Shown here piece after piece: positions 53,325 to 55,977 of a stretch of DNA of 64,000 bases (the first letter of the stretch is position 1; every line of letters starts with the position of its first letter). Both the position numbers and the translations under genes were made by a program. Source of the stretch: Granulicella mallensis (GTDB taxonomy: Bacteria; Acidobacteriota; Terriglobia; Terriglobales; Acidobacteriaceae); the NCBI RefSeq assembly GCF_014203225.1, contig NZ_JACHIO010000002.1, positions 124,001 through 188,000 on the forward strand, in the 5' to 3' direction. The notes under the pieces were generated by a model. The model saw only the letters and a list, made by a program, of their open reading frames with translations. It ran no database searches and was not told where the DNA came from.

Positions 53325-53352
53325 TTGAATGCCCCGCCGAAGGTGCTATACT
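53325..53352 (+). promoter_or_regulatory. sigma-70-type promoter of tRNA-Leu
   Basis: TTGAAT (53325-53330) and TATACT (53347-53352) are separated by 16 bp, placing the start near 53359, about 48 bases before the mature tRNA. This is the best-matched -35/-10 pair in the window. Confidence 0.6.
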
Positions 53353-53406: not shown

Positions 53407-53491
53407 GCGGAGGTGGCGAAATTGGCAGACGCACTAGCTTGAGGTGCTAGCGCCGCAAGGCATAGGGGTTCAAGTCCCCTCCTCCGCACCA
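53407..53491 (+). tRNA. tRNA-Leu (anticodon GAG), CCA encoded
   Basis: The 85-nt gene has a perfect 7-bp acceptor stem (GCGGAGG with CCTCCGC), a 5-bp anticodon stem CTAGC/GCTAG with loop TTGAGGT and anticodon GAG at 53441-53443, a long class II variable arm, a T arm GGGGTTCAAGTCCCC and genomic CCA. It decodes CUC and CUU. A promoter and a terminator flank it. A degenerate copy of its 3' half lies at 55580-55634. Confidence 0.97.
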
Positions 53492-53512
53492 ATCCAAAGT
53501 TTCAAGTACTAC

Positions 53513-53546
53513 GAAGGTCAACCGGAATCGGTTGGCCTTCTTTTTT
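53513..53546 (+). terminator. Rho-independent terminator after tRNA-Leu
   Basis: The 12-bp arms 53513-53524 and 53529-53540 (one G-U pair) with a GAAT loop are followed by six Ts (53541-53546), 21 bases after the tRNA. Confidence 0.88.
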
Positions 53547-53758
53547 CGTCACGACGACGGCTGCAGAAGATTGAATGCAATGCACCGCATGATGTAAGGG
53601 GCAAACCTCGCCCTTCAGAGTCTGCTCAATTCCCCTTCAGGCAAACGCGAAGCTTTGAGGCATCGATCTCTCGAATGCGAGCGCATGGGAATAGATCACC
53701 GGGCCAGGTGTTATTTCTCCAGGAACGAGATCTACAAGCTCTTAAAGCTGGAGAAGCA

Positions 53759-54400
53759 ATGCCCATTATCGAACCGAATTCATTGAACGCAAACCTCCAT
53801 CCAAGCAGCCATGTGATGGATCTCTACAAAAATAATGACAAAACCGAGTTTCTCCACGAGATATTTAAAGATCTCGCAATTGATGAGTTTCGGTTTCCCA
53901 CTACAGGCCTCGATGGCTGCATAGGACGCAGTAACTGCATCTCGAAGGCATACATTCCTCCCGCCAAGAGCGGTAGTCTCCCATTAGCTTTTCACCTGAA
54001 CTTCACATGTGTTCCAACCTCCTTTCGGGGTGCGGAGCTCAATCTGAAGATTACCCAATTTCATCTGACTGCCCGGCGATCGACGGCTCAAAAACTGATT
54101 AACAATAATGGCCCGTCTATTTTGACTGCCGCAGATTCAATTCATATAAGCAGAACAACCGAATGGGGTCGCCCCAACAACATGAAGAGTCTTGTTCAAG
54201 CTCTTGACAAAAGCGAAGCGGACTTGAGGGCAGTCTTGAGGAAGGAAGGTTTCGACAAGGCTTTTATGGAATTTACCGTGTTCCATGCGAAGAAACAGAT
54301 GACTGAGCGCGTATCGCGCAACCTGGGAACGCCCATAGAGATAACGTGGAACGATAGTGACGTTACTTTTGAAGCAACAGGCACCAACGAAGAAGAATAA
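53759..54400 (+). CDS. hypothetical protein in the tRNA-Leu-flanked segment
   Basis: The protein has 213 residues from ATG 53759, chosen because GGAG (53750-53753) lies 5 bases upstream; the frame extends back into the tRNA with no support. I do not recognise a family. It is soluble and mixed alpha/beta (FLHEIFKDLAIDEFRFPTT, SLPLAFHLNFTCVPTSF, LNLKITQFHLTARRSTAQKL, MEFTVFHAKKQMTERV) with an acidic end (ATGTNEEE). Codon use is clearly more AT-rich than in neighbouring genes, a sign of transfer. It lies between tRNA-Leu and the partial tRNA copy. Confidence 0.65.
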   Translation: MPIIEPNSLNANLHPSSHVMDLYKNNDKTEFLHEIFKDLAIDEFRFPTTGLDGCIGRSNCISKAYIPPAKSGSLPLAFHLNFTCVPTSFRGAELNLKITQFHLTARRSTAQKLINNNGPSILTAADSIHISRTTEWGRPNNMKSLVQALDKSEADLRAVLRKEGFDKAFMEFTVFHAKKQMTERVSRNLGTPIEITWNDSDVTFEATGTNEEE

Positions 54401-54436
54401 GGCGGAATCATTGTGGCCCTGGCTTCTGATGCAGTG

Positions 54437-54480
54437 GCCTCTTGTGTAAGGCTCTCCGTAATCAGCACCACACAAGAGGC
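54437..54480. repeat. 11-bp inverted repeat between the cargo genes
   Basis: GCCTCTTGTGT (54437-54447) and its exact complement (54470-54480) enclose a 22-nt loop. It may be the transcript end of the upstream hypothetical gene or an operator; neither strand has a T tract. Confidence 0.4.
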
Positions 54481-54543
54481 ACGCTGCAAGAGGACAATCA
54501 ATAAAACCATCGACGATGGAACAAGGAATATAGGACAGGAATC

Positions 54544-55428
54544 ATGAGTCCCAAAGAACGCCTTATGGAAGATCACACCGTCAACCTCAATGGAGTCGAT
54601 CTTCATTACAGGACTATCGGCAATGGCCCGGCACTCTTTCTTGTGTCTCCGGGCTGGGGAGTAACTTCCGGCTACTTGCAGCGCGCTTTCAGCTCCCTGG
54701 CCAGGCACTTTAAGCTCGTCTTTATCGATAGCCGAGGCAGTGGACTTTCAGGCCGTCCAGCCGATGCCACGCACATGGGAAGTATCGATATGGCAGATGA
54801 TCTTGAGGCCCTGCGGGAGCATCTTGACCTCTCACAAATCAGCATCCTGGGCCACTCCAACTCTGGCGCCATTGCTCTCTCCTATGCCACTCGCTATCCT
54901 GACCGCGTGAATAAGTTGGTGCTCTGCGACAGCCAGGTGCTGGGCTTGAGCGCGGCTGCAGACACACAACGAATCCTCCAGGATCGATCTACCGATCCAC
55001 GGTTTGAAGAGGCTACAAAAGTTGTATCGGCATTTTTTACAGGACAGATCAACCCTGCCTCAAGCGATGAGAGCCTTGAATCATTCATTGCTCAGGTTCT
55101 GCCGCTCTACCTTTACAGCCCGGAAAAGTCGTTATCTCTGGCCCGCAAGCATCTGTCCGGTCCCATCTCTTCCTATGCCTTCACCTCTCAATTTGCAGCG
55201 GACAGGGCTGTCCCAACGGACCAGACCAAATCTCTGGATGCGATCAAGGCAAAGACACTCATCCTGGTAGGACGGCATGACTTTATCTGTCCTGTGGCCT
55301 TATCGGAACGCCTGCACGAGGGCATCCCTGAATCTTCGTTAGTGATCTTTGAGAAAAGTGGACACTTCCCCTGGCTGGAAGAAACACCCGCGTTCTTCGC
55401 AGAGCTGGAGCGCTTTCTGCTCTCATAA
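54544..55428 (+). CDS. alpha/beta hydrolase in the tRNA-Leu-flanked segment
   Basis: A 294-residue serine hydrolase: the oxyanion strand reads ALFLVSPGWGVTSGYL (SPG in place of the common HG), FIDSRGSGLSGRP, nucleophile elbow ILGHSNSGAIAL (Ser), acid LVGRHDFICPV (Asp) and base FEKSGHFPWLEE (His). It is proline-iminopeptidase or haloperoxidase-like by overall pattern, with substrate unknown. GACAGGA lies just before the ATG as a weak ribosome site. It is the second gene between tRNA-Leu and the partial tRNA repeat. Confidence 0.85.
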   Translation: MSPKERLMEDHTVNLNGVDLHYRTIGNGPALFLVSPGWGVTSGYLQRAFSSLARHFKLVFIDSRGSGLSGRPADATHMGSIDMADDLEALREHLDLSQISILGHSNSGAIALSYATRYPDRVNKLVLCDSQVLGLSAAADTQRILQDRSTDPRFEEATKVVSAFFTGQINPASSDESLESFIAQVLPLYLYSPEKSLSLARKHLSGPISSYAFTSQFAADRAVPTDQTKSLDAIKAKTLILVGRHDFICPVALSERLHEGIPESSLVIFEKSGHFPWLEETPAFFAELERFLLS

Positions 55429-55579
55429 AGCTGCTCTTGGGGAGAAGTCGAGCTATGCAACAGCTTGTTGACACACGGATCGGAAGGGCCTGCACAGTTC
55501 GACCTCACAAACCGGGACGCTACCAATAAAATCAATCACATGACACCGCACGATAACCGGTGATAAACTTACATCGAGA

Positions 55580-55634
55580 TTGAGGAGCTAACGCCGCAAG
55601 GCATGGGGGCACATCCCTCCTCCGTACCAATCCA
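55580..55634 (+). pseudogene. degenerate copy of the tRNA-Leu 3' half (candidate att site remnant)
   Basis: These 55 bases align with tRNA-Leu positions 53439-53496 from the anticodon loop through the CCA end and five bases beyond. They share TTGAGG, CGCCGCAAGGCAT, TCCTCCG and ACCAATCCA, with a 3-base gap and a handful of substitutions. The 5' half is missing, so it cannot make a tRNA. It lies 50 bases before secG. Such a 3'-end repeat is what integration at a tRNA gene leaves behind; a decayed tandem tRNA copy is the alternative. Confidence 0.8.
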
Positions 55635-55683
55635 CTATTTCAGGACTCTGCCGCAGTTGCGGCCCGAAGGCAACGCTCGAACC

Positions 55684-55977
55684 ATGATCATTCTTCTCGT
55701 TATTCTGCACGTCGTTGTCTGCTTGTTCCTTATTGGCGTTGTTCTGGTACAGCAGGGTAAATCGGCCGACCTCGCCGGCGCCTTCGGCGGTCAGGGTTCT
55801 CAGACGGCTTTCGGTCCTCGTGGCGCAGCCAACCTGCTGACTCGCCTGACCACTTGGTCCGCCATCATCTTCATGCTGACCTCCATTGGCCTCACGGTCA
55901 TGATGTCGCGCAATGCCGGCGGCCACTCCGTGTTCTCGGGCACGCCGTCGAGCCAGACGACACCCGCCAAGAAGTAA
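55684..55977 (+). CDS. secG: preprotein translocase subunit SecG
   Basis: A small inner-membrane component of the SecYEG channel. The protein has 97 residues from ATG 55684. Helix 1 is ILLVILHVVVCLFLIGVVL, then the conserved VQQGKSADLAGAFGGQGSQT loop, FGPRGAANLLTRLT, helix 2 WSAIIFMLTSIGLTVMMS, and a short Ser/Thr-rich tail. The frame extends upstream into the tRNA-like repeat, which is not coding. A Rho-independent terminator follows. secG beside a leucine tRNA is a known arrangement in other bacteria. Confidence 0.95.
   Translation: MIILLVILHVVVCLFLIGVVLVQQGKSADLAGAFGGQGSQTAFGPRGAANLLTRLTTWSAIIFMLTSIGLTVMMSRNAGGHSVFSGTPSSQTTPAKK

Follow-up and report, generated by a model that had tools for sequence, protein, structure and literature searches.

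A probable decayed remnant of an integrative and conjugative element at the tRNA-Leu(GAG)/secG site of Granulicella mallensis

The segment studied here (positions 53407-55634) lies within a 64,000-nt stretch of Granulicella mallensis DNA (contig NZ_JACHIO010000002.1, positions 124,001-188,000 of the forward strand; assembly GCF_014203225.1), hereafter referred to as the window. In this segment, a tRNA-Leu(GAG) gene, the sole tRNA reported by ARAGORN in the window, is separated from secG by two genes and a degenerate copy of its own 3′ half, and the whole is very probably what is left of an integrative and conjugative element (ICE). Three genomes recur throughout, i.e., the window genome itself (G000), a closed relative of the same genus (G002), and a relative with a fuller element (G001, taken as Granulicella sp. 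L46). The features of the locus, in window coordinates, are as follows.

53325-53352, forward strand: promoter-like site of tRNA-Leu (TTGAAT-16-TATACT, with TG before the second hexamer), the best site upstream of the tRNA
53407-53491, forward strand: tRNA-Leu(GAG), the putative integration target (ARAGORN)
53439-53510, forward strand: left repeat copy (attL-type core), from the anticodon loop to 19 bp past CCA (alignment)
53513-53540, forward strand: intrinsic terminator directly after the tRNA, within the putative left end of the element (similarity to the G001 ICE)
53759-54400, forward strand: orphan cargo gene, 213 aa, low G+C, under purifying selection (open frame)
54544-55428, forward strand: alpha/beta hydrolase cargo gene, 294 aa, under purifying selection (Abhydrolase_1)
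55523-55569, forward strand: putative remnant of the ICE right end, outside the repeat (similarity to G001 copy 1)
55540-55569, forward strand: outward promoter-like site (ATGACA-18-TAAACT, with TG before the second hexamer), towards secG and overlapping the GATA pair (sequence scan)
55551-55566, forward strand: GATA repeat pair with 10-bp spacing, shared with several ICE right ends and perhaps bound by an accessory protein or excision factor
55580-55647, forward strand: right repeat copy (attR relic), the putative displaced and decayed 3′ half of the original tRNA-Leu (alignment)
55684-55977, forward strand: secG, the likely ancestral neighbor of tRNA-Leu(GAG) (TIGR00810, 8.5e-26)

An earlier note, made from the sequence alone, had pointed to a degenerate copy of the tRNA-Leu 3′ half running past CCA just before secG, and this copy was indeed retrieved at 55580-55647, with 36 bp remaining before the secG start codon. 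Its alignment score of 41 compares with a maximum of 15 in 500 mononucleotide shuffles (none of which reached the score), and a search of the whole 6.47-Mb genome matched it at E = 5.2e-10. Mononucleotide shuffles were likewise used for the promoter, arm-site and GATA tests below, and dinucleotide shuffles for the tests of end similarity. The similarity spans from the anticodon loop through CCA to ca. 19 bp further, with a degenerate core (41 of a possible 74). Relics were also present before secG in G002 and G010 (scores of 43 and 23, 0/500 shuffles in all three genomes; the G010 relic was queried with the 3′ half only), and run from –104 or –102 to –36 or –37 relative to the secG start. In G016 and G018, which have no insert, the tRNA 3′ half is intact and located at –104 to –48 and –97 to –29, respectively. 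The relic in the window genome therefore occupies the place of the native tRNA 3′ half before secG. A whole-tRNA query matched only the 3′ half before secG in G000 and G002, and no 5′ half was found there. In terms of the Islander principle, the locus thus combines an intact tRNA, a displaced fragment of the same tRNA, and a segment in between.

To place this arrangement among relatives, 81 genomes were searched for secG, of which 74 yielded it, and 40 of the 73 places outside the window genome were fetched, i.e., all 23 from the same genus, 17 of 20 from the same family outside the genus, and none from the order or class. tRNA-Leu(GAG) was located <0.5 kb upstream of secG in 16 of the 17 family members outside the genus (the lone exception, G032, has a contig that ends 5.9 kb upstream), in agreement with the earlier claim that secG next to tRNA-Leu is an arrangement known elsewhere. 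The same holds for 5 of the 23 loci within the genus (G006, G007, G016, G018, and G024). For the same order, coordinates place the tRNA match adjoining secG in G049, G050, G051, G052, G054, and G058, and put the best tRNA match on another contig than secG in G053, G055, and G056. At the other 18 same-genus loci, the tRNA is either 1 to 19 kb away (G002, G010, G012, G017, G019, and G027) or on another contig or not reached (the remaining 12). Because of its prevalence among the fetched relatives, tRNA-Leu(GAG) adjoining secG is most likely the ancestral order, with the window genome being derived. Moreover, different inserts occur at the same place in G002 and G010 (same genus) and in G302 (probably Terracidiphilus gabretensis S55) and G296 (other genera). 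Together with the five empty sites in the genus, these support the earlier suggestion that the segment was inserted.

A likely source of the segment was recognized in G001, where an element of ca. 25.6 kb at tRNA-Leu(GAG) is closed by a 58-bp repeat identical to the tRNA 3′ half, and where the gene for a 354-aa integrase ends ca. 105 bp before this attR repeat. Pfam domains in this first copy comprise Phage_integrase, TrwC, TrwB_AAD_bind, TrbL (VirB6), TrbI (VirB10), and P-loop_TraG/CagE_TrbE_VirB (VirB4-type). A related second copy (contig C39) has a TrwC relaxase, T2SSE/VirB11 and an AbiEii gene; the VirB11-type domain was seen in this second copy, and copy 1 has a VirB11-like open reading frame (ORF). 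The family hence displays a relaxase, a coupling protein, type IV secretion system proteins, a tyrosine integrase, and direct att repeats. Judging from these sequences, the source family of the segment is the TrwC/VirB-type ICE at tRNA-Leu(GAG) in G001 and G302. As a separate observation, the AbiEii-type nucleotidyltransferase gene of the second G001 element is accompanied by a DUF6088 partner gene upstream of the transfer genes.

When 398 family genomes were searched with the G001 integrase, eight places at E <= 1e-80 were retrieved, in six genomes (the printed bases of G481 and G690 do not differ, and the two may represent one element). A tRNA-Leu 3′ half follows within ca. 175 bp of the integrase at seven of these eight places (six of GAG type and one UAG-like by eye, on contig C5 of G302), and none was found after the integrase place in G595. 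The integrase preceding the tRNA-Leu(UAG)-like 3′ half in T. gabretensis S55 is 67% identical, so that this integrase family may have moved from one leucine tRNA target to another.

In both G296 and G302, the integrase is directly followed by the attR repeat and secG, with gaps from repeat to secG of 67 and 58 bp, respectively. A single contig of G302 carries the tRNA (1351-1435 of the fetched stretch), transfer genes, integrase, repeat, and secG (54379), so that an element of ca. 53 kb fills the interval between tRNA-Leu(GAG) and secG. Since its TrwC match covers residues 1-331 only, this copy may be defective. G296 has a full-length match to the G001 TrwC, on a contig that ends before any tRNA. 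VirB4 is 97.6% (G302) and 97.7% (G296) identical to that of G001, whereas SecG is only 64% and 76% identical to that of the window, which suggests recent transfer between genera and is an indirect sign of self-transfer. The rebuilt tRNA of G302 differs in its variable arm from the displaced half, which resembles the native G024 type (a third variable-arm type being present in G035, of the same genus as G302). This difference fits an element that brings its own tRNA 3′ half, as described for tRNA-integrating islands (PMC4383910, available text).

Outside the repeat, both ends of the segment resemble those of the ICE in G001. At the right end, 55523-55569 shares 37 of 47 bases with G001 copy 1 (score of 27 vs. 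a null maximum of 18; 0/2000 dinucleotide shuffles), the match being to one G001 copy only. The left end, including the terminator at 53513-53540, matches the left end of G001 copy 1 with a score of 26 (null maximum of 16; 0/500). When the left-end test was applied to the five uninserted genomes, none reached 0/500 (the nearest being G024, with 5/500). Among 11 other same-genus genomes in which tRNA and secG are apart, G002, G010, G014, G017, and G019 did reach 0/500.

Similar ends were also observed elsewhere. Contig C3 of the window genome carries a displaced ICE left end at 390856-390975 (i.e., a tRNA-Leu 3′ half, a terminator-like sequence, and one arm-type repeat by the arm-site pattern described below), away from any full tRNA-Leu and apparently within a short reading frame, with recombinase-like ORFs (by eye) ca. 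1.3 and 12 kb away. Its flank was found in G000 alone among 31 genomes, and the empty site of this displaced copy was not found there. G040 and G149, from two other genera, have ICE left-end-like sequence away from a full tRNA-Leu; the similarity begins a few bases upstream of the anticodon loop, and these may be secondary integration sites.

The comparison with G002 extends the history of the site. G002 is collinear with G000 up to the tRNA (91.7% over 9.8 kb), after which it has ca. 0.95 kb of extra sequence with a second, well-kept 3′-half copy and its own terminator-like sequence, followed downstream by the same two genes and the same relic as in G000. The extra piece ends in an integrase stub of 38 residues, 63% identical to the G001 integrase. 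By its sequence, G002 thus carries a second insertion into the same tRNA, for which G000 shows the empty site. The source ICE family and this serial insertion go beyond what the earlier note had proposed. Integration, decay and accretion have been described for cis-mobilizable elements (CIMEs; PMC5704250, available text), and G002 and G000 match that sequence of events.

As the earlier note had stated, no integrase was seen among the ORFs of the segment (by eye), and it was therefore filed as a remnant rather than as an intact island. The best relative of the G001 integrase in the window genome is 33% identical, with none at E <= 1e-80. Integration and transfer genes appear to have been lost (ORFs by eye; the two cargo proteins scanned), and attL- and attR-type copies both remain recognizable, the attR copy being degenerate.

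What the segment did keep are the orphan and the alpha/beta hydrolase that the earlier note had placed between the repeats, and both are open frames, the hydrolase matching Abhydrolase_1 at E = 1.5e-27. The AT-rich composition noted for the orphan was borne out, its G+C (0.469, z = –3.3) being the lowest among the 45 ORFs of 150 aa or more in the window, and the hydrolase is only mildly low (0.539, rank 7/45); composition alone is supportive for the former and weak for the latter. When G000 is compared with G002, the ratio of nonsynonymous to synonymous substitution rates (dN/dS) amounts to 0.106 in the orphan and 0.132 in the hydrolase; both genes are under purifying selection and have been kept. 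The orphan was found in 2 of 399 class genomes (G000 and G002). It had no NCBIfam match and only sub-threshold Pfam and PHROG matches (the Pfam Nuclease_act match, at E 0.037, is below the cut-off and was not used), and no match in plasmid and phage searches. A genome-contig search gave 50 pattern matches, none of them a relative, with records near the window's own genome possibly left out. Its predicted structure has a mean pLDDT (predicted local distance difference test) of 40, from a two-row alignment. Of 200 family genomes, three have the hydrolase at E <= 1e-70, with G513 as the third (68% identity). Directly after the hydrolase gene lies a dispersed repeat of ca. 70 bp (55415-55492), of which the genome holds 11 further partial copies with 76-87% identity.

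Taken together, we consider the segment to be a decayed ICE remnant of the CIME type at the tRNA-Leu(GAG)/secG site, that would have arisen by integration and later loss with the cargo being kept (rough probability of 0.93). The grounds are those of sequence comparison, i.e., the repeat and its native position, sites with and without an insert, the source ICE found in the same tRNA, the ICE-like sequence at both ends, and selection on the cargo. In this scenario, a tyrosine integrase would have recombined the attP of the element with the anticodon-loop region of tRNA-Leu(GAG), upon which a new 3′ half from the element would have rebuilt the tRNA, and the original 3′ half would have been displaced downstream, where it now decays before secG. 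A later deletion would have taken the integrase and transfer genes and left the two ends with the two cargo genes, both of which selection would then have kept; this order of events is the one we infer.

A number of observations weigh against this interpretation. The right flank of the segment does not rise above shuffles when compared to G001 copy 2 (312/2000), G010 (190/2000) or the second insert of G002 (1111/2000), nor do the right flanks of the two G001 copies match one another (528/2000). The window segment itself showed neither an integrase stub nor any transfer gene; the stub lies in the neighboring G002 insert. No homolog of either cargo gene was found at E <= 1e-4 in the stretches read of G001, G302, and G296. 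Moreover, 15 of 16 further same-genus loci without an adjacent tRNA give no clear attR relic (the nearest of these 15 being G001, where 13/500 shuffles reach its score), and G003, G004, G008, G012, G015, and G027 fail the left-end test. Because these are six of the 11 genomes tested, not every separation of tRNA and secG in the genus is creditable to this ICE family. Since clear relics are lacking at 15 of 16 loci and left-end similarity to G001 is not universal, much of this separation may be ordinary rearrangement. The interval in G017, for instance, contains dnaE2-like and cytochrome-like ORFs (ORFs outside the window were called mechanically, and these and the transporter-like names below were given by eye). 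G005 has an intact tRNA 3′ half at the very start of its secG contig. The secG contigs of G149 and G005 both begin inside the tRNA 3′ half, as expected from an assembly break at a repeated att site, and these breaks probably mark further insertions at the same place.

The most serious alternative accepts that an ICE inserted and differs from the preferred reading solely in the origin of the cargo, in that ordinary recombination would have brought in the two genes later, between ends already in decay (cargo turnover at a hotspot). The absence of homologs of both genes from the ICE stretches read is what suggests such later entry, and G010 adds to it by combining a relic attR at the same place (23, 0/500) and an ICE-like left end (19, 0/500) with different genes, including transporter-like ORFs. 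However, the right flank of G010 does not match that of G000 above shuffles (190/2000), so that its contents may stem from an independent insertion, and the orphan is confined to G000 and G002 among the 399 class genomes. Late arrival is a plausible but less favored origin, and the two cargo genes may instead have arrived with this ICE.

Within the decayed ICE remnant, a more specific and rather doubtful proposal is that the element family carries its own punctuation, with a left terminator that closes the tRNA unit and an outward promoter at the right end that re-supplies secG, the block being kept because secG depends on it. The terminator does sit between the rebuilt tRNA and the cargo, and the promoter-like site at 55540-55569 scores well in G000 and G002 (reached by 3/1000 and 4/1000 shuffles, respectively). 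As a candidate, it could replace the tRNA promoter that secG would have lost by the insertion. The best site upstream of the tRNA has TG and TATACT in 9 of 10 genomes scored, with its first hexamer 79-87 bp upstream of the tRNA (G001 excepted), and most of these sites are not rare in shuffles. On the other hand, the right-end site is weaker in G001 copy 1 (61/1000) and G010 (99/1000), and absent in G001 copy 2 (670/1000) and G481 (876/1000). It also overlaps GATA repeats that are more like sites for accessory proteins. Paired GATA repeats 10 bp apart occur at four sites each in G001 copy 1, G296, and G302 (0, 1, and 0/2000 shuffles, respectively), GATA repeats occur five times in G481 (0/2000), and one pair has been kept in both G000 and G002 (21/2000 shuffles each reach two sites). 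Because this pair overlaps the promoter-like site, excision-factor sites are a strong alternative to a promoter at the right end. Furthermore, the right-end block (54/55 identical between G000 and G002) gives no clear sign of selection when set against the left intergenic region (255/265) or the sequence between the two genes (138/142). Were the promoter proposal true, it would show how an ICE can come between an RNA gene and the gene downstream of it and still leave the latter active. A NiCo riboswitch match on the minus strand at 55620-55708 was rejected (21.3 vs. a gathering score of 37; E 0.22).

It is even less probable that a related element, on arrival, could still mobilize the remnant in cis or in trans. 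Mobilization is possible for CIMEs whose att sites are intact (PMC5704250, available text), both ends and both repeat copies of the segment are recognizable, and, as G002 shows, insertions can still occur at the tRNA-side site. In ICEs such as that of G302, the ends have GTAGTGGTT repeats to either side of the core, and a pattern fitted to ends of this type found no arm site in G000. Of the left flanks scanned, 7 of 18 match the pattern, as do 5 of the 9 right ends; the 11 left flanks and 4 right ends that it misses include some that are arm-like by eye. Since this narrow pattern also misses many other ends, including that of the integrase-bearing G481, the missing arm sites in G000 are weak evidence against mobility. 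Nevertheless, the core of the relic is degenerate and no close integrase was found in the genome. Present mobility thus appears unlikely, and excision would presumably no longer be possible. Where the earlier note had called the segment decayed or passively mobilized, the first term holds and the second is not supported for its present state.

Finally, the earlier note had named a decayed tandem tRNA copy as a reading that would undo its own. This scarcely credible reading, by which the genes would lie between two tRNA-Leu copies by chance, was rejected: while the repeat is indeed a piece of tRNA near a tRNA, only a 3′ half was found there in G000 and G002, it sits at the place of the native 3′ half, the DNA directly before it matches the ICE right end (0/2000), and the ICEs of G296 and G302 share the same anatomy.

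Decayed ICE remnants are known as a kind, met here at a Terriglobia site. Neither the tRNA-Leu(GAG)/secG site nor its ICE family is described among the literature matches listed, and the word "conjugative" occurs 0 times in the available main text of two papers on Acidobacteria genomes, of which one treats genomic islands and integrases (PMC3174227) and the other prophages and transposable elements (PMC5900883). The site offers a worked case of ICE decay at one position, which in the genomes compared is empty, occupied by elements with transfer genes and an integrase, the target of a later insertion that retains an integrase stub, or the place of old remnants whose attR has decayed to different degrees. 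These comparisons point to the use of tRNA-Leu(GAG)/secG in Terriglobia by an ICE family of the TrwC type that shows signs of having spread recently from genus to genus, with some relatives still carrying fuller copies of the element at the same spot.

Several known systems share parts of this anatomy (in each case as given in the available text of the source). ICEBs1 of Bacillus subtilis is likewise an ICE with its primary attB in a tRNA-leu gene, the attachment gene alone being compared here (PMC3715440). The ssrA islands of Dehalococcoides resemble the site in their serial insertions at one RNA gene, their direct repeats, and the lack of an integration module in several islands, yet they involve a serine recombinase and tmRNA, whereas a tyrosine integrase and tRNA-Leu(GAG) are involved here (PMC3146451). 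With the tRNA islands of Islander and their anticodon-centered crossover, the segment shares a rebuilt tRNA and a displaced 3′ fragment at its two ends, with a repeat that starts from the anticodon loop; it differs in that the displaced fragment has decayed, no integrase is present, and the segment measures only ca. 2.1 kb (PMC4383910). The closest likeness is to a CIME, i.e., a decayed ICE or integrative and mobilizable element (IME) that keeps attL and attR (PMC5704250): the segment is flanked by attL- and attR-type copies, shows no integration or transfer genes, holds two cargo genes, and stands in tandem with a second insert in G002. It departs from that type in its degenerate attR, on account of which it is probably no longer mobilizable and best described as a decayed CIME.

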